Source: Chitinophagaceae bacterium IBVUCB2
Lineage (GTDB): Bacteria; Bacteroidota; Bacteroidia; Chitinophagales; Chitinophagaceae
Assembly: GCA_002127295.1 (NCBI GenBank)
Contig: NFUV01000003.1
Location: 62,001 to 126,000, forward strand
Direction: 5' to 3'
DNA length: 64,000 nt
The notes under the pieces are model-generated. The model was not told the origin of the DNA. It did not search any database and saw only the letters and a list, made by a program, of their open reading frames with translations. Both the position numbers and the translations under genes were made by a program. Below are positions 37,222 to 46,282 of the stretch, in pieces. Every line of letters begins with the position of its first letter. The first letter of the stretch is position 1.

Positions 37222-37665
37222 TTACTCATTCCGCATTGAAATAATACTGTCAACTATATACTTTGTATTACCCCGCCAGGGCAATGCTCCATGATATTCC
37301 CTGTAATGCAAGTCAAATAGCTTACCGCTATTGGCAGAGAGAATATCGTAGATCGCTTTACTCTTGATAGAAAATTCAAATTCGTATGATTGAATAGAAC
37401 CCGGCGTTTTAGTTCTGTAGCCTTCCTGTATTAATTTTCCTTCATAGGTTTTAAAAATATTCCCTTTTTTCACAGCATAGTTGAGATGTCCGCTTTTAAC
37501 GCCATCGCCAAACACAAAAAAGAAGCGGAAATAAAAAAATACAGCTAATCCGATCAATAACAAGATCAACAATGCTCTTGTAAATTTTCTAAATCCTGAC
37601 AGTTTTTTCTTAGCAGGTCTTTGCTCTAACGGTTGTTCGGTAAAATGCACATTATCATCGGTCAT
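37222..37665 (-). CDS. Small single-pass membrane protein, conserved in Bacteroidetes
   Basis: 147 residues: a basic cytosolic start, one membrane helix at about 30-50 (ALLILLLIGLAVFFYFRFFFVF), then a soluble domain of about 95 residues with GHLNYAVKKGNIFKTYEGKLIQEG and HYREYHGALPWRGNTKYIV. Related proteins occur widely in the phylum without a known role and are sometimes misnamed as dehydrogenases. It is convergent with the RsmI-like gene (two bases between stops) and divergent from the arginine leader. Confidence 0.65.
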   Translation of the reverse strand: MTDDNVHFTEQPLEQRPAKKKLSGFRKFTRALLILLLIGLAVFFYFRFFFVFGDGVKSGHLNYAVKKGNIFKTYEGKLIQEGYRTKTPGSIQSYEFEFSIKSKAIYDILSANSGKLFDLHYREYHGALPWRGNTKYIVDSIISMRNE

Positions 37666-37714
37666 ACAAGTGGTTTTATAACAAAAATTTTATCAAAAAG
37701 ACCAATTATTGGTT

Positions 37715-37722
37715 TACATTTG
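37715..37722 (+). promoter_or_regulatory. -7 element of the arginine operon
   Basis: TACATTTG matches TAnnTTTG exactly. A start of transcription near 37727 would give a leader of about 240 bases before the first structural gene. The -33 region is T-rich but has no exact TTTG. Confidence 0.6.
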
Positions 37723-37729
37723 TTCTCAA

Positions 37730-37748
37730 TTTACAACTTGTTTGTAAA
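37730..37748. promoter_or_regulatory. Inverted-repeat candidate operator at the arginine promoter
   Basis: TTTACAA (37730-37736) and TTGTAAA (37742-37748) form a perfect 7+7 palindrome with five bases between, just after the predicted transcription start. A further GTTTACA at 37712-37718 overlaps the -7 element and is the complement of TGTAAAC at 37743-37749. Three copies of a TTTACA word around one promoter suggest a repressor site. The 19-base layout differs from the classical 18-base ARG box, so I do not assign ArgR. Confidence 0.5.
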
Positions 37749-37749
37749 C

Positions 37750-37872
37750 ATGAGTAATATACTGACACATACTAAACAAATCGCTTTTCACGGCTCCATT
37801 ACCTGTGGCGTTTACGCTGTTGGATATGACTTGTTTACATTCTGCCGCCCCCGACGTCGCCCTGTATTCTGA
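37750..37872 (+). CDS. Arginine-rich leader peptide (40 aa)
   Basis: A 40-codon frame from ATG 37750 to TGA 37870. Residues 33-37 read Arg-Pro-Arg-Arg-Arg (CRPRRRPVF end), encoded by CGC CCC CGA CGT CGC, and lie just before the stop. It is the first frame of the arginine biosynthesis transcript. In amino-acid attenuators a ribosome stalls at codons for the pathway product when the charged tRNA is scarce; four Arg codons ahead of an arginine operon fit this exactly. The stop codon lies inside a helix that competes with others. No clear Shine-Dalgarno, as usual in this phylum. Confidence 0.65.
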   Translation: MSNILTHTKQIAFHGSITCGVYAVGYDLFTFCRPRRRPVF

Positions 37873-37943
37873 CAGGACGAACCCTTCACCATGGTCCCTG
37901 TCAGTGAAGCAACTCCCACAATAAGATTTTTTGGACTGGTGAG
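37857..37943 (+). promoter_or_regulatory. Competing RNA helices after the Arg codons (putative attenuator)
   Basis: Four partly exclusive helices. A: 37861-37865 CCTGT with 37872-37876 ACAGG, extended by 37857-37859 with 37878-37880. B: 37869-37876 CTGACAGG with 37897-37904 CCTGTCAG, a perfect 8 bp extendable across a bulge. C: 37884-37889 CTTCAC with 37904-37909 GTGAAG. D: 37886-37897 with 37933-37942 (TCACCA/TGGTGA plus GTCC/GGAC, 2-base bulge). A and B share bases, as do B and C. A T6 run is at 37927-37932, but it does not directly follow a helix, so a classical terminator is not obvious. Confidence 0.55.
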
Positions 37944-37968
37944 CCGCTATATTTCAAGTTAAATACAA

Positions 37969-38679
37969 ATGGACAATCAAAATATTATTATCAGGGTAGC
38001 TACTGCTGCTGATAAAGTTTATTCAAAAACCATCACCGATGAGATGGAGGCTTCTGCTGCTGCCCGTGGAACGGGTATTGCCAAGCGAAGTCCGGATTAT
38101 ATTGAACAAAAGATCGATGAGGGAAAAGCAGTGATTGCAATAACCGACCAGAATGAATGGGTGGGTTTTTGCTATATCGAAACCTGGAGTCATGGAGAAT
38201 ATGTTGCAAACAGTGGTTTGATCGTTGCTCCTGCATTTAGAAAAAGCGGTGTGGCAAAATCTATCAAACAAACAATTTTTACTCTCTCCCGCCAAAAATA
38301 TCCGGAAGCAAAATTATTTGGACTTACTACAGGTCTTGCGGTAATGAAAATTAATAGCGACCTCGGTTACGAACCTGTTACTTACTCCGAATTAACACAG
38401 GACGAAGCTTTCTGGGCTGGGTGTAAAAGCTGTGTGAACTATGAAATATTGATGAGCAAGGAGAGGAAAAACTGCATGTGTACAGCCATGCTCTTCGATC
38501 CTAAAGACCATTACGAGCCAGAAGAAACCAAAGAATATTTTAAAGAGAATGTAAAAGGATTTGAACGTTTATTGCGGTTTAAGCAATGGAAACTCTTGCG
38601 CCCCTTTATGAAAAAAGATAAAACGGGTAATGGTGGTGCCCGGCCTAAATCCTTACTTCATCATTTATTCCATTTATAA
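37969..38679 (+). CDS. GNAT acetyltransferase, candidate N-acetylglutamate synthase
   Basis: 236 residues. GNAT fold in residues about 7-160, with acetyl-CoA loop region LIVAPAFRKSGVAKSIKQTIF (R/Q-x-x-G-x-A/G type). The C-terminal 75 residues include CKSCVNYEILMSKERKNCMC, a cysteine-rich segment. It is the first structural gene of the arginine operon, and no argA or argJ is otherwise present, so acetylation of glutamate to start the pathway is the likely role. This is inference from position; the protein is not a close ArgA by sequence. Its stop is 19 bases before argG. Confidence 0.8.
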   Translation: MDNQNIIIRVATAADKVYSKTITDEMEASAAARGTGIAKRSPDYIEQKIDEGKAVIAITDQNEWVGFCYIETWSHGEYVANSGLIVAPAFRKSGVAKSIKQTIFTLSRQKYPEAKLFGLTTGLAVMKINSDLGYEPVTYSELTQDEAFWAGCKSCVNYEILMSKERKNCMCTAMLFDPKDHYEPEETKEYFKENVKGFERLLRFKQWKLLRPFMKKDKTGNGGARPKSLLHHLFHL

Positions 38680-38698: not shown

Positions 38699-39904
38699 AT
38701 GTCAAAAAAAGTTGTTTTAGGTTTTAGTGGTGGTTTAGACACTTCATACTGTGTAAAATACCTGACAGAAGACCTGGGTTATGAAGTGCATAGCATTATT
38801 GTAAATACCGGGGGATTCTCAGCCGATGAATTAAAACAGGTAGAAGCTCATGCTCATAAACTGGGTGTTAAAACACATAAAACTGTAAATGCAGTTAAAG
38901 GATATTATGATCGTATCATCCGTTATCTTATTTATGGAAATGTATTAAAGAATAATACCTATCCCCTATCTGTATCGGCCGAACGTTTGAGCCAGGCATT
39001 ACATATTGCTGAACATGCAGAAGAATTGAATGCTGATGCAGTAGCACATGGCAGTACGGGTGCCGGCAACGACCAGGTACGGTTTGATATGATCTTTCAT
39101 ATTATGATCCCGGGTGTTGAAATAATTACACCTATCCGTGATTTACAATTGAGCCGGGAAGAAGAGATTGCTTACCTGAAAGCAAAAAATGTTGATATGA
39201 ACTTTGAGAAATCAATGTACTCAATCAATAAAGGCCTGTGGGGAACAAGTGTTGGAGGAAAAGAAACATTGTCGTCCAAAGGAATGTTGCCCGAAGAAGC
39301 ATGGCCTACACAGGTAACAAAAACTGGCAGTGAAGAGGTTGTACTTCATTTTGAAAAAGGGGAGTTGAAGAAAGTAAATGATAAAAAGTTCGATCATCCT
39401 GCAGATGCCATACAATTTCTACAAACAATAGCAGGACCGTATGGCATTGGCCGTGATATTCATGTTGGCGACACCATCATTGGTATTAAAGGAAGAGTTG
39501 GTTTTGAAGCTGCTGCACCTATGGTAATTTTAAAAGCACATCATGCTTTGGAAAAACATGTGCTGAGTAAATGGCAATTGCAATGGAAAGACCAGATAGC
39601 GCAGTTTTATGGCAACTGGTTACATGAAGGACAAATTCTTGATCCGGTGATGAGAGATATGGAGAATTATTTGGAAAGCAGCCAACGCAATGTATCGGGT
39701 GATGTGTTTGTACAATTATATCCTTATCGTTTCCAGGTAATAGGAATTGAAAGTAAATATGACCTGATGAATAGTAAGTTTGGCAAATATGGTGAAATGA
39801 ATACTGGTTTTACTGGTGATGACGTAAGAGGTTTCAGTAAAATATTTGGCAACCAAACATCCATTTATCATTTGGTAAAGACGGATACAAATGGAGAAAA
39901 TTAA
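38699..39904 (+). CDS. argG: Argininosuccinate synthase
   Basis: 401 residues from the ATG at 38699; a longer frame from 38630 would overlap the GNAT gene and lacks homology. It joins citrulline and aspartate using ATP. The N-terminal ATP loop (VVLGFSGGLDTSYCVKYL, residues 4-21) and the STGAGNDQVRFD motif are intact. Length is typical. It is second in the operon and overlaps argC by 14 bases. Confidence 0.96.
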   Translation: MSKKVVLGFSGGLDTSYCVKYLTEDLGYEVHSIIVNTGGFSADELKQVEAHAHKLGVKTHKTVNAVKGYYDRIIRYLIYGNVLKNNTYPLSVSAERLSQALHIAEHAEELNADAVAHGSTGAGNDQVRFDMIFHIMIPGVEIITPIRDLQLSREEEIAYLKAKNVDMNFEKSMYSINKGLWGTSVGGKETLSSKGMLPEEAWPTQVTKTGSEEVVLHFEKGELKKVNDKKFDHPADAIQFLQTIAGPYGIGRDIHVGDTIIGIKGRVGFEAAAPMVILKAHHALEKHVLSKWQLQWKDQIAQFYGNWLHEGQILDPVMRDMENYLESSQRNVSGDVFVQLYPYRFQVIGIESKYDLMNSKFGKYGEMNTGFTGDDVRGFSKIFGNQTSIYHLVKTDTNGEN

Positions 39905-40883
39905 AGTTGGTATTATCGGAGGTGCAGGCTACACCGGAGGTGAGTTAATAAGAATATTGTTAAATCACCCCGGTGCAAGTATCTCTTTTGTTCATAGTCG
40001 CAGCAATGCCGGCAAAGCTATTGACAGCATTCACCAGGATTTGATTGGCGAATCTGCATTAAATTTTACGGATGATACAACTGGAATCACTGACGGATCT
40101 ATTGATGTATTGTTTCTATGCTTAGGTCATGGAGAATCGAAAAGATTTTTAACTGACAACAAAATCAGTGCCATCACAAAAGTTATTGACCTTGCAAATG
40201 ATTTTCGGTTAGCAGCACACTCTTCTATTGACGACAGACATTTTGTGTACGGTTTACCTGAGTTGAACAAAGAAGAAATTAAGACGGCACAAAATATTGC
40301 AAACCCCGGCTGTTTCGCAACAGCCATCCAGGTTGGTTTATTACCATTAGCAAAAGCCGGATTATTAACTGATATTTATACAACCGGCATTACTGGCTCT
40401 ACGGGTGCCGGGCAATCTCAATCAACAACTTCTCATTTTAGCTGGAGAGCTAATAATATACAGGCCTATAAAACATTAACGCATCAACACCTGGGGGAAA
40501 TAGGCGAATCGCTTTTACAATTACAACCGGTGAATGATGTTGATTTGAGTTTTGTTCCGTGGAGAGGTGATTTTACCAGGGGCATTTTTATCAGCTCCAC
40601 TTTACATTGTGATTTAAGTTTGGAAGAATTGAATGTACTGTATTCTGAGTTTTACAAAGACCAACCCTTTACGCATGTAAGCAAAGAACCCATTTTCTTA
40701 AAACAGGTTGTTAATACCAATAAAGCGGTAATTCAATTAGAAAAAGCAGGAAGCAAGTTAGTGCTACATTCCGTGATTGACAATTTATTGAAAGGAGCTT
40801 CCGGCCAGGCTGTACAGAATATGAACCTTATGTTCGGCTTAGATGAAACAAGTGGGTTGAAACTAAAAGCCAATTATTTTTAA
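39891..40883 (+). CDS. argC: N-acetyl-gamma-glutamyl-phosphate reductase
   Basis: 330 residues. NADPH-dependent reduction of N-acetylglutamyl phosphate to the semialdehyde. Rossmann motif GIIGGAGYTGGELIR (8-22), catalytic Cys141 in NPGCFATAIQ, and the TGSTGAGQS substrate segment are present. Start overlaps argG by 14 bases, indicating translational coupling, and argD follows after nine bases. Confidence 0.95.
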   Translation: MEKIKVGIIGGAGYTGGELIRILLNHPGASISFVHSRSNAGKAIDSIHQDLIGESALNFTDDTTGITDGSIDVLFLCLGHGESKRFLTDNKISAITKVIDLANDFRLAAHSSIDDRHFVYGLPELNKEEIKTAQNIANPGCFATAIQVGLLPLAKAGLLTDIYTTGITGSTGAGQSQSTTSHFSWRANNIQAYKTLTHQHLGEIGESLLQLQPVNDVDLSFVPWRGDFTRGIFISSTLHCDLSLEELNVLYSEFYKDQPFTHVSKEPIFLKQVVNTNKAVIQLEKAGSKLVLHSVIDNLLKGASGQAVQNMNLMFGLDETSGLKLKANYF

Positions 40884-40892
40884 ATTTTATCA

Positions 40893-42041
40893 ATGAAATT
40901 ATTTGATGTATATCCCATTAACGAAATTACCATTGTAAAAGCCAAAGGTTCTTATGTGTGGGATGATAAGGGTGAGCAATACCTCGACCTGTATGGCGGT
41001 CATGCGGTAATTAGTATTGGACATACACATCCTCATTGGGTAAAACGAATTGAAGATCAGTTAGAGCAAATTGCTTTTTACTCTAATTCTATACGAATAC
41101 CATTGCAGCAACAATTAGCGGAGAAGCTGGGGAAAGTATCCGGCAAAACAGATTACCAGCTATTTCTTTGTAACAGCGGCGCAGAAGCGAATGAAAATGC
41201 ATTGAAGCTGGCAAGCTTTCATAATGGAAGAAAAAAAATAATTGCTTTCAGCAAATCATTTCATGGCAGAACTTCGCTGGCCGTTGCTGTAACGGATAAT
41301 AAAAACTATTCTGCCCCGGTTAATGAAACAGACAATGTTATCTTTCTTCCTTTTAATGACGAAGATGCATTAGAAGAATGTTTTAAGAAAAAAGGAAAAG
41401 AAATTTCATCTGTTATTATAGAAGGAATTCAAGGTGTTGGTGGTATCAATATTGCTGATGATTCGTTCCTGAAAAAAATCCGTTCGCTTTGTGATGAGCA
41501 TGGAGCCGTTTATATCGCTGATAGTGTACAGTGTGGATATGGGAGAACAGGGAAATTCTTTAGTCATGATTTTGCAGGTGTAAATGCAGACATTTATACA
41601 ATGGCGAAAGGAATGGGTAATGGTTTCCCTGTTGCCGGAATTATAGTAGCACCACATATTAAATCAAAACATTTTCAATTAGGCACCACATTCGGTGGCA
41701 ATCACCTTGCTTGTGCCGCTGCGTTAGCGGTATTGGAAATTATTGAGGAAGAGAAACTGATGGGCAATGCAGTGATGGTTGGCAAATACCTGCGAGATGA
41801 ATTAGAATCAATCCCACAATTAAAAAATGTGAGAGGTCGTGGCTTAATGATCGGATTTGATGTGCCGGATGAATTAAAAGACTTGAAAAAGAATCTACTC
41901 TGGGAGCAGAAAATATTTACAGGTGAAGCCAAACCGAATGTGATACGTTTATTGCCATCACTTGCTTTAAAGAAAAGGGATGCCGAACAGTTTATTGATT
42001 CTATAAAAGAAGAAGTAGAAAAGTTGATGGCTATTGCCTGA
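40893..42041 (+). CDS. argD: Acetylornithine aminotransferase
   Basis: 382 residues, PLP-dependent class III aminotransferase that makes N-acyl-ornithine from the semialdehyde and glutamate. The PLP loop CNSGAEANENALKLA (93-107), Asp210 (IADSVQCGYGRTG) and Schiff-base Lys239 (YTMAKGMGNGFP) are all seen. It may act on either acetyl or succinyl intermediates, depending on the unusual carbamoyltransferase next door. A 106-base gap with short repeats separates it from that gene. Confidence 0.94.
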   Translation: MKLFDVYPINEITIVKAKGSYVWDDKGEQYLDLYGGHAVISIGHTHPHWVKRIEDQLEQIAFYSNSIRIPLQQQLAEKLGKVSGKTDYQLFLCNSGAEANENALKLASFHNGRKKIIAFSKSFHGRTSLAVAVTDNKNYSAPVNETDNVIFLPFNDEDALEECFKKKGKEISSVIIEGIQGVGGINIADDSFLKKIRSLCDEHGAVYIADSVQCGYGRTGKFFSHDFAGVNADIYTMAKGMGNGFPVAGIIVAPHIKSKHFQLGTTFGGNHLACAAALAVLEIIEEEKLMGNAVMVGKYLRDELESIPQLKNVRGRGLMIGFDVPDELKDLKKNLLWEQKIFTGEAKPNVIRLLPSLALKKRDAEQFIDSIKEEVEKLMAIA

Positions 42042-42147: not shown

Positions 42148-43116
42148 TTGAAAAATTTTGTTTCTGTTAATGATGTAAGCAATATTGATGCATTAGTGCA
42201 AAAAGCTTTGGCCTATAAAGCCAGTCCATATATTGACAAAACATTAGGCACTAATAAACGCATTGGTTGTTTGTTTCTTAACCCGAGTATGCGTACAAGA
42301 TTGAGTACACAGATCGCTGCGCAGAATCTTGGCATGGAACCAATCATTTTTAATGTGGGTAGCGAAGGCTGGATGCTGGAGTTTGAAGAAGAGGCCATCA
42401 TGAGCGGTACAACAGTGGAGCATGTAAAAGACGCCGCCCCTGTGTTTGGAAAATATTTTGACATTCTTGCCATCAGAACTTTTCCATCACTAAAGAACAG
42501 AGATGATGATTATAGTGAACTGTACATTAAACAGTTTATTAAATATGCCGGAATACCCGTAGTAAGTTTAGAGAGTTCTACTCTTCATCCCTTACAATCT
42601 TTTACAGATATTATTACGATTACCGAAGAATTGGAGAAAGCTAAAATCGTCAATCCGAAACCAAAAATTGTGTTGACCTGGGCTCCTCATGTAAAACCAC
42701 TTCCGCAATGTGTGGCAAATAGTTTTTCGCAATGGGTAAATGCCTGGGGCAAAGCCGATTTTGTTATTACTCACCCGGAGGATTATGAACTAAGTGAGGA
42801 GTTTACCAAAGGAGCAACTATTACGCATAATCAAAATGAAGCGTTGAAAGATGCAGATTTTGTATATGTAAAGAACTGGAGCACTTTTAATGATTATGGT
42901 AAAATTTATGAAAGTGATCCGAATTGGATGCTGACGAATAAAAAATTAGAACTGACCAATAATGCGAAGGTGATGCATTGTCTTCCGGTAAGAAGAAATG
43001 TAGAACTAAGTGATGAAATATTAGACGGGCCGAACAGCATCGTTACACTGGAAGCATCAAATAGAGTATGGGCCGCACAAGCGGTCTTATCTGAAATTCT
43101 AAGGACCAATGGATAA
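42148..43116 (+). CDS. argF': N-acyl-ornithine carbamoyltransferase (TTG start)
   Basis: 322 residues from a TTG at 42148. It resembles the acetyl/succinyl-ornithine carbamoyltransferases rather than ordinary ArgF. Carbamoyl-phosphate motif SMRTR (47-51), the EGWMLEFE segment, HPLQSFTD, HCLPVRRN and TWAPHVKPLPQ are conserved. In characterised enzymes the position before EH selects the substrate: Glu92 in Xanthomonas acetyl-type, Pro90 in Bacteroides succinyl-type. Here it is Val90 (SGTTVEH), so the acyl group cannot be read directly. It overlaps argB by eight bases. The N-acyl-citrulline product must be deacylated by the M20 enzyme downstream. Confidence 0.9.
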   Translation: MKNFVSVNDVSNIDALVQKALAYKASPYIDKTLGTNKRIGCLFLNPSMRTRLSTQIAAQNLGMEPIIFNVGSEGWMLEFEEEAIMSGTTVEHVKDAAPVFGKYFDILAIRTFPSLKNRDDDYSELYIKQFIKYAGIPVVSLESSTLHPLQSFTDIITITEELEKAKIVNPKPKIVLTWAPHVKPLPQCVANSFSQWVNAWGKADFVITHPEDYELSEEFTKGATITHNQNEALKDADFVYVKNWSTFNDYGKIYESDPNWMLTNKKLELTNNAKVMHCLPVRRNVELSDEILDGPNSIVTLEASNRVWAAQAVLSEILRTNG

Positions 43117-43894
43117 TTTATACATTATAAAAATTGGTGGTAATATCATTGATGATGAAAAAAAGCTTGCATCATTTCTAAAAAATTTTGCAGCTATTGA
43201 AGGAAATAAAATTCTGGTGCATGGGGGTGGGAAGCTTGCTACGAAATTAGCCGAACAGATGAATGTGCCACAACAAGTGTTGGATGGCAGACGTATTACA
43301 GATGCTGAAACATTGAAGATCGTTACCATGGTGTATGCCGGTTATATCAATAAAAATATTGTTGCCAAACTGCAAATGAATCATTGCAATGCTATTGGTC
43401 TTTGCGGTGCTGATGGAGATGCAATATTGGCACATAAACGAAAACACCCGGTGATGGATTATGGTTTTGTAGGTGATGTTGATTCTATCAACACAGACCT
43501 GATCCGCACCTTGCTAGAAAAAAATCTTACTCCTGTATTTGCTCCAATTACCCACGACCAGCAGGGGCAATTATTAAATACTAACGCTGATACCATTGCG
43601 CAGGAATTGGCAAAAGGATTGAGTAATGATTTTACTATACATCTTATTTACTCCTTCGAAAAAAATGGTGTGTTGATGGATGCGAATGATGATGATACTG
43701 TTATTCCGGTTATCACCCCCGCATCCTATAAAAAATTAAAAGACGAAGAAAAAATATTCGCCGGGATGATACCCAAAATGGACAATGCATTTACAGCATT
43801 AAACAGCGGAGTAAAAAAAGTAATTATCGGCAAAGCCGAAAATTTACAGGAGCTGATCACTGGAAAATCGGGGACAAGCATAACCAATGAGTAA
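43109..43894 (+). CDS. argB: Acetylglutamate kinase
   Basis: 261 residues, amino-acid kinase fold. It phosphorylates N-acetylglutamate. The opening YIIKIGGNIIDD and the glycine-rich LVHGGGKLATKLAEQ are the nucleotide and substrate loops. NADTIAQELAKGL matches the ATP-side motif, and the C-terminal GMIPKMDNAFTALNSGVKKVIIG is typical. No N-terminal arginine-sensing helix is seen, so feedback inhibition is not predicted. It overlaps both neighbours by eight bases. Confidence 0.94.
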   Translation: MDNLYIIKIGGNIIDDEKKLASFLKNFAAIEGNKILVHGGGKLATKLAEQMNVPQQVLDGRRITDAETLKIVTMVYAGYINKNIVAKLQMNHCNAIGLCGADGDAILAHKRKHPVMDYGFVGDVDSINTDLIRTLLEKNLTPVFAPITHDQQGQLLNTNADTIAQELAKGLSNDFTIHLIYSFEKNGVLMDANDDDTVIPVITPASYKKLKDEEKIFAGMIPKMDNAFTALNSGVKKVIIGKAENLQELITGKSGTSITNE

Positions 43895-44954
43895 CGACTT
43901 ACATACTTTACAAACCGAAGCAATTTCCTTATTAAAAGAACTGATTGCTACACCATCCTTTAGCAAAGAAGAGGAGCAGACAGCAGCCATTATTGGAAAA
44001 TTTTTAGCGGTAAAACAAATTGCTGCTACCAGGGTTGGCAATAATGTTTTTGCATTGAACAAACAGTTTGACGAAAAGAAGCCTACCATTCTTCTCAATT
44101 CACATCATGATACCGTAAAACCAAATCCTCAATATACAAAAGACCCCTTCTCACCCATCGTTGAAGATGAAAAGCTTTATGGACTGGGAAGTAATGATGC
44201 TGGCGGATGCCTGGTTTCACTGTTAGCTACCTTTTTATACTTCTACGATAAAACGACAGCTTACAATATAATTTTTGCGGCTACTGCTGAAGAAGAAATA
44301 TCCGGTACTGGCGGCATTGAATATACATTGCCATATCTGCCGAAAATTGATTGTGCCATTGTTGGCGAGCCTACACTTATGCAAATGGCTGTGGCAGAAA
44401 GAGGATTAATGGTACTGGATTGTATAAGTTTTGGTAAAGCCGGGCATGCAGCAAGAGAAGAAGGTGAAAACTCCATTTACAAAGCATTTAAAGATATCGA
44501 GTGGTTCAGGAACTATAAGTTGCCAAAAATTTCTGATTTGCTCGGCCCATCCAAAATGAGTGTTACTGTTATTGAAACAGAAAACAAAGCACATAATATG
44601 ATTCCATCACAATGCAAATTTGTGGTGGATACCCGCATCAATGAATTATACAGTTTTGAAGAAGTGTTAGATATTATTAAATCGAATGTTGACTGTGATG
44701 TAAAACCCAGAAGTATGCGGCTTCGATCCACATCAATTGCATTGGATCATCCTTTGGTAAAAGCAGGACTTGATCTTAACAGAACTTATTATGGCTCTCC
44801 TACTACTTCGGATAAAGCATTAATGCCCTTCCCTTCGCTGAAGATGGGACCGGGTGACTCCGCAAGAAGTCATACAGCAGATGAGTATATTTATGTAAGC
44901 GAGATAAAAGAAGGTATTGAATTATATATCCAACTTCTAAACCAGGTACTATGA
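43887..44954 (+). CDS. argE: M20 deacylase, N-acetylcitrulline/ornithine deacetylase type
   Basis: 355 residues. M20 metallopeptidase with two-metal site residues visible: His73/His74 in LNSHHDTV, Asp104 in GLGSNDAGG, and Glu135/Glu136 in ATAEEEISG. Because the operon has an acyl-ornithine carbamoyltransferase, the expected substrate is N-acyl-citrulline, releasing citrulline for argG. It overlaps argB by eight bases and argH by four. Confidence 0.9.
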   Translation: MSNDLHTLQTEAISLLKELIATPSFSKEEEQTAAIIGKFLAVKQIAATRVGNNVFALNKQFDEKKPTILLNSHHDTVKPNPQYTKDPFSPIVEDEKLYGLGSNDAGGCLVSLLATFLYFYDKTTAYNIIFAATAEEEISGTGGIEYTLPYLPKIDCAIVGEPTLMQMAVAERGLMVLDCISFGKAGHAAREEGENSIYKAFKDIEWFRNYKLPKISDLLGPSKMSVTVIETENKAHNMIPSQCKFVVDTRINELYSFEEVLDIIKSNVDCDVKPRSMRLRSTSIALDHPLVKAGLDLNRTYYGSPTTSDKALMPFPSLKMGPGDSARSHTADEYIYVSEIKEGIELYIQLLNQVL

Positions 44955-46282
44955 AACTTTGGCAAAAAGACAAAGCCTCTTTAAAAGAAGTAGAAAAATT
45001 TACAGTGGGCAACGACCGTGAAATGGATATGTATCTTGCCGCTTTTGATGTACAAGGCTCCTTAGCACATACCCAAATGCTCGAATCAGTTGGATTGCTC
45101 ACAAAAGATGAGTTAAAGCAATTACAAGCTCAATTAAAAAACATTTACAGTCAAATACAAAAAAGCGAATTCAAATTACAGGATGATGTAGAAGATATTC
45201 ACTCACAAGTCGAATTGCTGCTCACACAAAAACTCGGCGATATTGGCAAAAAAATTCATAGTGCCAGAAGCCGTAACGACCAGGTTTTGGTAGATGTAAA
45301 ATTATTCCTCCGCAATGAATTGGAAGAATTGGTGAATACTATTCAACCTTTCTTCGAACTATTACAATCACAAAGCGAAAAATATAAAACTGATTTACTC
45401 CCGGGCTACACACACCTTCAATTAGCCATGCCTTCTTCTTTCGGACTTTGGTTTGGCGCCTATGCCGAAAGTTTGGTGGATGATGTAGTAACAATAAAAG
45501 CAGCTTATGATGTGGTAAATAAAAACCCATTAGGCTCTGCTGCAGGCTATGGTTCTTCATTTCCAATCAACAGAACTTTGACAACAAAACTGCTGGGCTT
45601 CGATGATCTGAATTATAATGTTGTCTACGCTCAAATGGGAAGAGGAAAAGCCGAACGCATCGTTGCACAATCGCTGGCTAACGTTGCTGATACATTGGCC
45701 CGGTTAAGTATGGATGCTTGTCTATACCTTAATCAAAATTTCGATTTCATCAGTTTCCCTACAGAACTTACAACGGGCAGCAGCATCATGCCGCATAAAA
45801 AAAACCCAGATGTATTCGAACTTATCCGTTCCAAATGCAATCAAATAAAAGCACTGCCGAATGAAATAATGATGATGACAACCAACCTTACTTCTGGTTA
45901 TCACCGGGATCTACAATTACTGAAAGAACATTTATTCCCAGCTTTCAAAACATTAAAAGATTGTATTGAAATGGCAGGGCTAATGCTGTCTAATATTGAA
46001 ATAAAGAAAGGTATACTTGCTGATGAGAAATATAAATACCTGTTCAGTGTGGAAGAAGTAAACAAATTAGTGAACAGCGGAATACCTTTCCGGGATGCAT
46101 ACAAAAAAGTAGGATTAGACATTGAAACAGGAAACTTTACATACGATACTTCAATTGCTCATACGCATGAAGGAAGCATTGGTAATCTGGGTACTGCAGC
46201 AATAAAAAAACAGATGCAAAAAGTAGTAAGTACTTTTCCTTTTGCATCTGTTCAAAAAGCAATTGAGAAATTAGTTTCCTGA
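44951..46282 (+). CDS. argH: Argininosuccinate lyase
   Basis: 443 residues, fumarase/aspartase superfamily. It cleaves argininosuccinate to arginine and fumarate. The superfamily signature GSSIMPHKKNP is at 276-286, His154 in GYTHLQLAMP, and HSARSRNDQ near 103. It is the last gene of the arginine operon. Its stop directly abuts the stop of the convergent M28 peptidase gene, with no terminator between. Confidence 0.95.
   Translation: MKLWQKDKASLKEVEKFTVGNDREMDMYLAAFDVQGSLAHTQMLESVGLLTKDELKQLQAQLKNIYSQIQKSEFKLQDDVEDIHSQVELLLTQKLGDIGKKIHSARSRNDQVLVDVKLFLRNELEELVNTIQPFFELLQSQSEKYKTDLLPGYTHLQLAMPSSFGLWFGAYAESLVDDVVTIKAAYDVVNKNPLGSAAGYGSSFPINRTLTTKLLGFDDLNYNVVYAQMGRGKAERIVAQSLANVADTLARLSMDACLYLNQNFDFISFPTELTTGSSIMPHKKNPDVFELIRSKCNQIKALPNEIMMMTTNLTSGYHRDLQLLKEHLFPAFKTLKDCIEMAGLMLSNIEIKKGILADEKYKYLFSVEEVNKLVNSGIPFRDAYKKVGLDIETGNFTYDTSIAHTHEGSIGNLGTAAIKKQMQKVVSTFPFASVQKAIEKLVS

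Follow-up and report, generated by a model that had tools for sequence, protein, structure and literature searches.

Leader-peptide attenuation is known for the his, trp, leu, ilv, thr and phe operons, and in the trp and his attenuators a leader rich in the regulated residue precedes the operon for that residue. Control of arginine biosynthesis is usually ascribed to ArgR. The principle of ribosome-mediated amino-acid attenuators is laid out in the accessible part of PMC8079986. In Salmonella, two consecutive Arg codons in orf34, a 34-residue upstream frame of speF, sense arginine; according to the available sections of the report, a hairpin just past the stop codon forms when the ribosome stalls at these codons and is blocked by a ribosome at the stop, and orf34 controls ornithine decarboxylase via Rho, ribosome-site masking and RNase G (PMC6386406). 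The short frame rbfL of S. aureus contains Arg codons at which the ribosome pauses under arginine limitation (PMC13009471, in part). For the P. aeruginosa carA leader peptide attenuation has been proposed and linked to pyrimidines in the sections available (PMC4997734). Closer in phylogeny, strong clues for leader-peptide attenuation before amino-acid operons are described for Flavobacterium psychrophilum (PMC9723704), short frames reminiscent of attenuators for Bacteroides (PMC7366714) and leader-type motifs from genome scans (PMC8632094), each as given in the accessible text. In the portions of the open-licence literature that were available, we found no biosynthetic operon of Bacteroidota under an arginine attenuator, and none of the texts describes such an attenuator ahead of an arg operon.

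The locus described here lies within 64,000 nucleotides of Chitinophagaceae bacterium IBVUCB2 (contig NFUV01000003.1, positions 62,001 to 126,000), referred to below as the window. We consider it probable, judging by sequence comparison, that ribosome-mediated attenuation of the trp/his type, with arginine as the signal, controls the arg operon of this bacterium.

The leader frame before the arginine operon

A gap of about 300 bases separates the upstream neighbour gene (37222-37665, minus strand) from the GNAT gene at 37969. The preliminary description had placed the leader directly ahead of an arginine operon, and the family models bear this out, giving GNAT followed by argG, argC, argD, argF', argB, a deacylase and argH (Table 1). 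The curated cut-offs were passed by argC, argB and argH; the other genes after GNAT are best matches under theirs. No NCBIfam match was obtained for the GNAT gene, whose nearest public records are mostly Chitinophagaceae MAGs. None of the eight operon genes had argA or argJ as its best match. The GNAT protein may be the missing acylglutamate synthase.

Table 1. Features of the leader region and the arginine operon (positions in the window).
Feature	Position	Strand	Basis
-7 promoter-type element TACATTTG	37715-37722	+	exact TAnnTTTG; similar element at the same place in aligned window-group relatives
Leader peptide ORF, 40 codons + stop	37750-37872	+	ATG 37750, TGA 37870-37872; selection in relatives
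Putative regulatory Arg tract, codons 33-37 (CGC CCC CGA CGT CGC)	37846-37860	+	recurrence in relatives
Element 1, P1 5' arm CUGACAGG, holds leader stop 37870-37872	37869-37876	+	compensatory changes
Unpaired ACGA inside P1, conserved	37877-37880	+	alignment A1
P2, upper stem inside P1 (37881-37883 with 37893-37895)	37881-37895	+	compensatory changes, 2 of 3 pairs
Element 2 (UCACCA-UG-GUCC), spanning the P1 loop and 3' side	37886-37897	+	can pair with element 3
P1 3' arm CCUGUCAG	37897-37904	+	compensatory changes
Element 3 GGACUGGUGA, partner of element 2	37933-37942	+	pattern match in 59 of 86 P1 loci
GNAT acetyltransferase-like gene, operon gene 1	37969-38679	+	PF00583 21.8 bits, just above cut-off 20.7
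argG, argininosuccinate synthase	38699-39904	+	argininosuccinate synthase in all best family matches; TIGR00032 at 265.4 bits vs cut-off 268.2
argC	39891-40883	+	TIGR01850 above cut-off
argD, acetylornithine transaminase family	40893-42041	+	TIGR00707 best match, under cut-off
argF', N-acetylornithine carbamoyltransferase family	42148-43116	+	NF003384 best match, 270.2 bits vs cut-off 288
argB, acetylglutamate kinase	43109-43894	+	TIGR00761 above cut-off
ArgE/DapE-type deacylase	43887-44954	+	TIGR01910 best match, under cut-off
argH, argininosuccinate lyase	44951-46282	+	TIGR00838 above cut-off

The element noted earlier ahead of the leader frame is an exact match to TAnnTTTG, the consensus of -7 promoter-type elements. 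A scan of the plus strand for sigma-70 promoters and terminators returned none. A longer frame from TTG 37633 begins upstream of the -7 element and was therefore rejected as the start. Translation of the leader gives MSNILTHTKQIAFHGSITCGVYAVGYDLFTFCRPRRRPVF, with the C-terminus FCRPRRRPVF before the stop and four Arg codons within the last eight (R33, R35-R37). Both the 40-codon frame and the Arg-Pro-Arg-Arg-Arg run had been recognised before; the run does not, as had been assumed, lie directly before the stop codon, since Pro-Val-Phe intervenes.

For comparison with relatives the GNAT gene was used as an anchor, being present in 57 of 97 relatives and in 156 of 195 family genomes. The 184 upstream regions (L001-L184) were taken from the places listed, as a rule a single one per genome and with other families of the order contributing some; the contig-end places G039, G006 and G037 and the listed places G224, G179, G204, G181, G110 and G209 were excluded, and L022, whose leader is N-masked, was counted as a miss. 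A frame with at least three Arg in its last nine codons and a start at least 12 codons upstream was found in 147 of the 184, compared with 2.6% in dinucleotide shuffles, and the runner-up residue by the same measure, Leu, reached 36 of 184 against 15.6%. The pair RR within the last seven codons occurred in 162 of 184 (3.1% in shuffles). A permissive count without a control of its own, requiring at least two Arg in the last nine codons before GNAT, gave 175 of 184. In a second collection, which overlaps the first, the Arg frame was present in 67 of 80 loci. Conservation of an Arg-rich frame in related genomes had been fixed beforehand as a point on which the proposal could fail; by these counts the frame is conserved. 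Outside the family, at least three Arg in the last ten codons were seen in 27 of 46 loci from the class's other families (7.4% in shuffles), these 46 being what remained of 51 examined once two argR loci and three that duplicated loci of the family had been removed; clear misses include L222, L224, L226, L227 and L230. On this comparative evidence, a run of codons for the operon's own amino acid is recurrent in the relatives.

Helices at the leader stop codon

A hairpin of the form CUGAYAGG...CCURUCAG, starting one base before the TGA and termed P1, was found in 86 of 184 loci, and in all 86 this TGA closes an open frame that has a possible start codon 15-48 codons before it. A peptide could be placed on all 172 loci submitted. 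Among 60 distinct P1 sequences pairing was retained in 98.5% of cells, and compensatory changes occurred at three of the 11 pairs of P1 and its upper stem P2, namely P1 pair 5:34 (CG 39, UA 18, UG 3), P2 pair 13:29 (GC 29, AU 25, GU 3, other 3) and P2 pair 16:27 (CG 45, AU 9, UA 1, other 5). None of 500 shuffles matched the observed number of paired cells, that of cells with both sides changed, or the covariation score; the number of pairs changed on both sides (378/500) and of pair types (383/500) did not exceed the shuffles. Pairing was lost when the partner strand was slid. The 64 distinct model matches behaved similarly (493/500 for pairs changed on both sides, 2/500 for pair types), alignment A2 being derived from a model built on A1 and thus not independent of it. 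Seven of the eight P1 pairs never vary and hence provide no evidence of pairing; as the pattern used to pick the rows of A1 prescribes these seven, their invariance in A1 results from the choice of rows. The folding energy of the whole leader was not above that of shuffles (z 0.14) and was therefore not counted as evidence.

A model of P1, R1, gave one match per genome in 35 of 117 family genomes, all 35 directly before a listed GNAT gene, in a search with stricter filters and 56 candidates scored per genome. Within these genomes, the comparison thus places P1 solely before the operon's first gene. In the window R1 recovered P1 once on the plus strand, together with one chance-level match on the other strand, and it matched 68 of 80 loci of the second collection, which overlaps the training genomes.

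Downstream of P1 lies element 3, with the motif GGAYUGGU (37933 in the window), which is absent by pattern from 27 of 86 P1 loci. Pairing is possible in the window between TGGTGA and TCACCA of the P1 loop and between GGAC and GTCC, and the resulting helix of elements 2 and 3 (hereafter el2:el3) is mutually exclusive with P1. One pair in the first half of this helix covaries, that between the nucleotide preceding the loop's ACC and its counterpart in element 3: it is formed in 39 of 49 distinct re-anchored rows (CG 27, TA 4, GC 3, AT 3, GT 2) and broken in 10, against a mean of 23.7 in permutations that ignore relatedness, of which 0 of 5000 scored as high. The other five of the six pairs in this half are invariant or do not covary, and one pair of the second half is broken in 14 of 49. 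On a parsimony tree based on one short protein and covering 45 of the 49 loci, both sides of the covarying pair change on seven branches, three of them replacing one pair by another, and a single side changes on seven.

Of the four helices drawn in the preliminary description all can be formed on paper, and comparison supports two, 37869-37904 and 37886-37942. Their covariation, the second point fixed beforehand, was observed at three pairs for P1 with P2 and at one for 37886-37942. The helix 37861-37876 was rejected; it requires CCTGT, which by eye, without a count, is absent from many relatives, and a role for it is unsupported. Likewise rejected by eye, without a count, was 37884-37909, which is broken where the loop changes in relatives while GTGAA stays. 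Element 3 as a self-standing terminator hairpin also fared poorly, the outer GG..CC being kept and the inner pairs present in 26 and 20 of 49. The T content after element 3 is 0.45 compared with 0.39, and no dominant partner was found for element 3 in the P1 state.

Three further observations concern this region. P1 and the unpaired ACGA (37869-37908) are more invariant than pairing needs. A C-rich motif between P1 and element 3 (37913-37917) fits a loose pattern in 78 of 86 P1 loci, a count made without a control. Two loci of one genus, L168 and L170, carry a different hairpin, ACTGGTAGTAG...CTGCTATCAGT, after an Arg-ending frame, possibly a further class of the same switch.

Ribosome position and alternative readings

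Since the Arg-codon frame overlapping a conserved hairpin recurs in relatives, arginine is probably sensed through the progress of the ribosome. Folding was calculated with the RNA masked up to given positions of the ribosome's front edge, which by toeprinting lies at +15 from the first P-site base. With the edge before the stop codon the median probability of P1 was 0.93 (86 P1 loci), and el2:el3 exceeded 0.5 in one of 59 loci. At 3 nt beyond the stop P1 fell to 0.00 and el2:el3 exceeded 0.5 in 19 of 59, rising to 30 of 59 at 13 nt beyond the stop, with P1 again at 0.00. In the window itself P1 was at 0.91 for edges up to 37866, 0.76 at 37869 and 0.12-0.23 at 37872; el2:el3 was at 0.60-0.85 with the edge at 37878. 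In the absence of a ribosome P1 took either of two values, 0.61 and 0.91, according to where the folded segment ended on its 3' side. In this model P1 would be weakened by stalling at the window's last Arg codons, with the edge at about 37867-37871, and left intact by stalling at the first.

Taken with the position of the first Arg, these values imply that starvation gives P1 and plenty gives el2:el3. At low levels of charged tRNA-Arg the ribosome would stall at the CGC, CGA and CGT codons with its front edge no further on than the stop codon; P1 would then form and sequester element 2, the rival helix would not arise and the operon would be expressed. When arginine is plentiful, the ribosome would reach the stop inside the P1 5' arm and mask it, allowing 37886-37897 to pair with 37933-37942 and lowering expression, for which Rho, decay, a weakly acting intrinsic terminator at element 3 or another process are candidates. 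The proposal that starvation favours the 37869:37897 helix thus agrees with the computed geometry, and ArgR was not found (see below). Mutually exclusive helices of which one is masked by the ribosome are predicted for the P1 class only.

The same leader and helices could work with reversed polarity, a stall at the last Arg masking P1 and leaving el2:el3 as the on-state, with P1 forming after ribosome release as the off-state. That P1 is the off-state after release was our initial model, and it was turned round once the ribosome edges had been computed. Masking of the first P1 nucleotides already disfavours P1 in silico, and the last RR adjoins the stop in 37 leaders, both of which speak for this polarity; however, with the edge at +15, a ribosome stalled at the tract's first Arg would remain short of the stop in 150 of 172 leaders, and in 37 of 49 members of the window's group that Arg occupies codon -8. 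We regard reversed polarity as unlikely, if still worth bearing in mind.

How expression is lowered under the trp/his-type reading was considered across all loci. That a standard U-tract terminator is not visible, as noted at the outset, is correct for the window, where no hairpin-plus-U site was found. Such sites occur in 31 of 172 loci compared with 9% in shuffles, an approximately twofold excess; the strongest are in classes C and D, and seven weaker ones are in P1 loci. Some leader peptides elsewhere also lack a typical terminator, according to the accessible part of PMC8079986. In classes C and D, 86 loci together, the Arg tract is present and a P1 of the window's type is absent. Sequences after the stop are structured in both (mean z -1.81 in class C and -1.47 in class D), but the stop region itself pairs more than the mean of its shuffles in only 28 of 51 and 14 of 35 loci, respectively, which is no excess over shuffles. 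A P1 at the stop of every class was rejected; it can be drawn by eye in several class C loci and is not above shuffles. As separate observations, three P1 loci, L119 (G119), L137 (G233) and L140 (G167), carry ACACGATACGTGT with a U-rich tail as a small terminator-like hairpin, and by eye a CGTGTAT motif resembling the ACACGATACGTGT hairpin recurs in class C loci.

The peptide itself was examined for selection. Among 40 relatives of the window's group that align without gaps, the whole frame has a pN/pS of 0.24, with 0.18 over codons 2-31 and 0.54 over codons 32-40, compared with 1.7-2.5 when the other two frames are read. Of these 40, 39 have ATG or GTG as the first codon and 38 have CGA as codon 35. 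This selection leads us to infer translation of the leader ORF. Its body gave pN/pS of 0.14-0.18 with pS of 0.67-0.71 over 49 window-clade sequences, and 0.37-0.83 in groups B, C and D, the lowest of these values resting on five pairs. Alignment of 108 divergent leader peptides revealed little in common along the full length besides the Arg tract, leader lengths outside the window's group being set by the rule of the start nearest 38 codons. Hence the body matters in the window's clade, and family-wide it is mainly the Arg tract that is kept. Selection of this strength at the protein level on the body (37750-37842, HTKQ.AFHAPITSGVYSVGFDVFTF) is unusual for a codon-counting leader.

The last nine codons of 172 leaders contain 541 Arg codons, of which 47% are CGA, 23% CGT, 20% CGC, 4.6% AGA, 4.4% AGG and 1.3% CGG. 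The long ORFs of the window, the sole baseline here in place of each genome's own usage, have 9.2% CGA and 35% AGA among their Arg codons, and relatedness is ignored in both counts. Genes for tRNA-Arg found in the bacterium's own genome have the anticodons ACG, CCG, TCT and CCT (37 tRNA matches; 150 of 239 candidates scored). An ACG tRNA with inosine reads CGT, CGC and CGA. The leaders thus favour the codons of one isoacceptor and, among them, its poorest codon, CGA.

A more elaborate version would be a two-part sensor that has replaced ArgR, combining stalling on one tRNA-Arg with an active nascent peptide and the invariant P1 with its unpaired ACGA. Free arginine would then be read directly in the window's clade, by the ribosome or by the RNA, in addition to charged tRNA; we give this version little credence. 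The nascent chain of the fungal arginine attenuator peptide senses arginine in the ribosome tunnel and arrests when it is present, and the leader might likewise be an arrest peptide that senses free arginine and stalls in its presence. The window-clade selection on the body, with synonymous sites free, is compatible with such a peptide. The relaxed pN/pS in groups B, C and D, in which the Arg tract nevertheless persists, and the scarcity of other features common to divergent leaders argue against it, and we hold it to be quite improbable.

The hairpin could instead be a binding site for a protein or metabolite in the manner of a riboswitch, the ORF being secondary. Invariance of seven of the eight P1 pairs, in A1 partly a product of row selection, and near-invariance of ACGA would suit such a site; yet the Arg tract is spread more widely than the hairpin (classes C and D), the stop codon holds a constant position in the hairpin in 86 P1 loci, and no Rfam family, T-box, known leaders and riboswitches included, matched the window at gathering score, the best match in 37690-38000 being a weak one to rli27 (E 5.5). 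This makes a riboswitch-like site very improbable. A chance ORF without function, for which the unremarkable folding energy of the single sequence might speak, is contradicted by the Arg-frame counts, the P1 compensation, the R1 matches and pN/pS, and merits practically no belief.

ArgR and comparison with known attenuators

A search for ArgR (PF01316) was negative in all 58 relatives, the bacterium's own genome included, and the same search was positive in 9 of 14 control genomes. In the class as a whole 12 of 198 genomes gave matches, nine of them above the cut-off. Six genomes have both an above-cut-off match and a GNAT gene; in five of these argR lies directly upstream of GNAT, and in the sixth, G434, the match is marginal and on a separate contig. 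The argR-GNAT genomes, which belong to other families of the class and are probably Bacteroidales, have the same first gene, but a gene for a DNA-binding repressor in place of the leader. The family, and to judge by the Arg frames probably further families of the class, appears to use a leader peptide, with no ArgR in the genomes searched. If this is true, arginine control would be explained in a part of Bacteroidota that lacks ArgR, through an Arg-codon attenuator with a preferred tRNA (CGA, CGT and CGC codons). The RNA element is conserved and amenable to simple reporters.

Among the systems described, speF orf34 is the nearest case in the sections available, as it shares the sensing by Arg codons and the hairpin after the stop; it differs in that its Arg codons, at 12-13, are far from the stop and in that it belongs to another bacterial group (PMC6386406). 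In rbfL the pause blocks translation of a biofilm regulator and, in the accessible text, no arginine operon follows (PMC13009471). The carA leader resembles that of the window in preceding a gene that also serves arginine synthesis, as described in the available part (PMC4997734). F. psychrophilum is of the same phylum, and arginine is not named among the clues in the accessible sections (PMC9723704).

The closest agreement in design would be with the trp and his attenuators, in the leader rich in the regulated residue, the stop codon beside the arm masked by the ribosome and the two exclusive helices. Unlike these, the present leader would respond to arginine, has no clean U-tract terminator in the window, and carries an invariant hairpin and a peptide body under selection. 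It would thus represent a known type of mechanism with arginine as an unusual signal.
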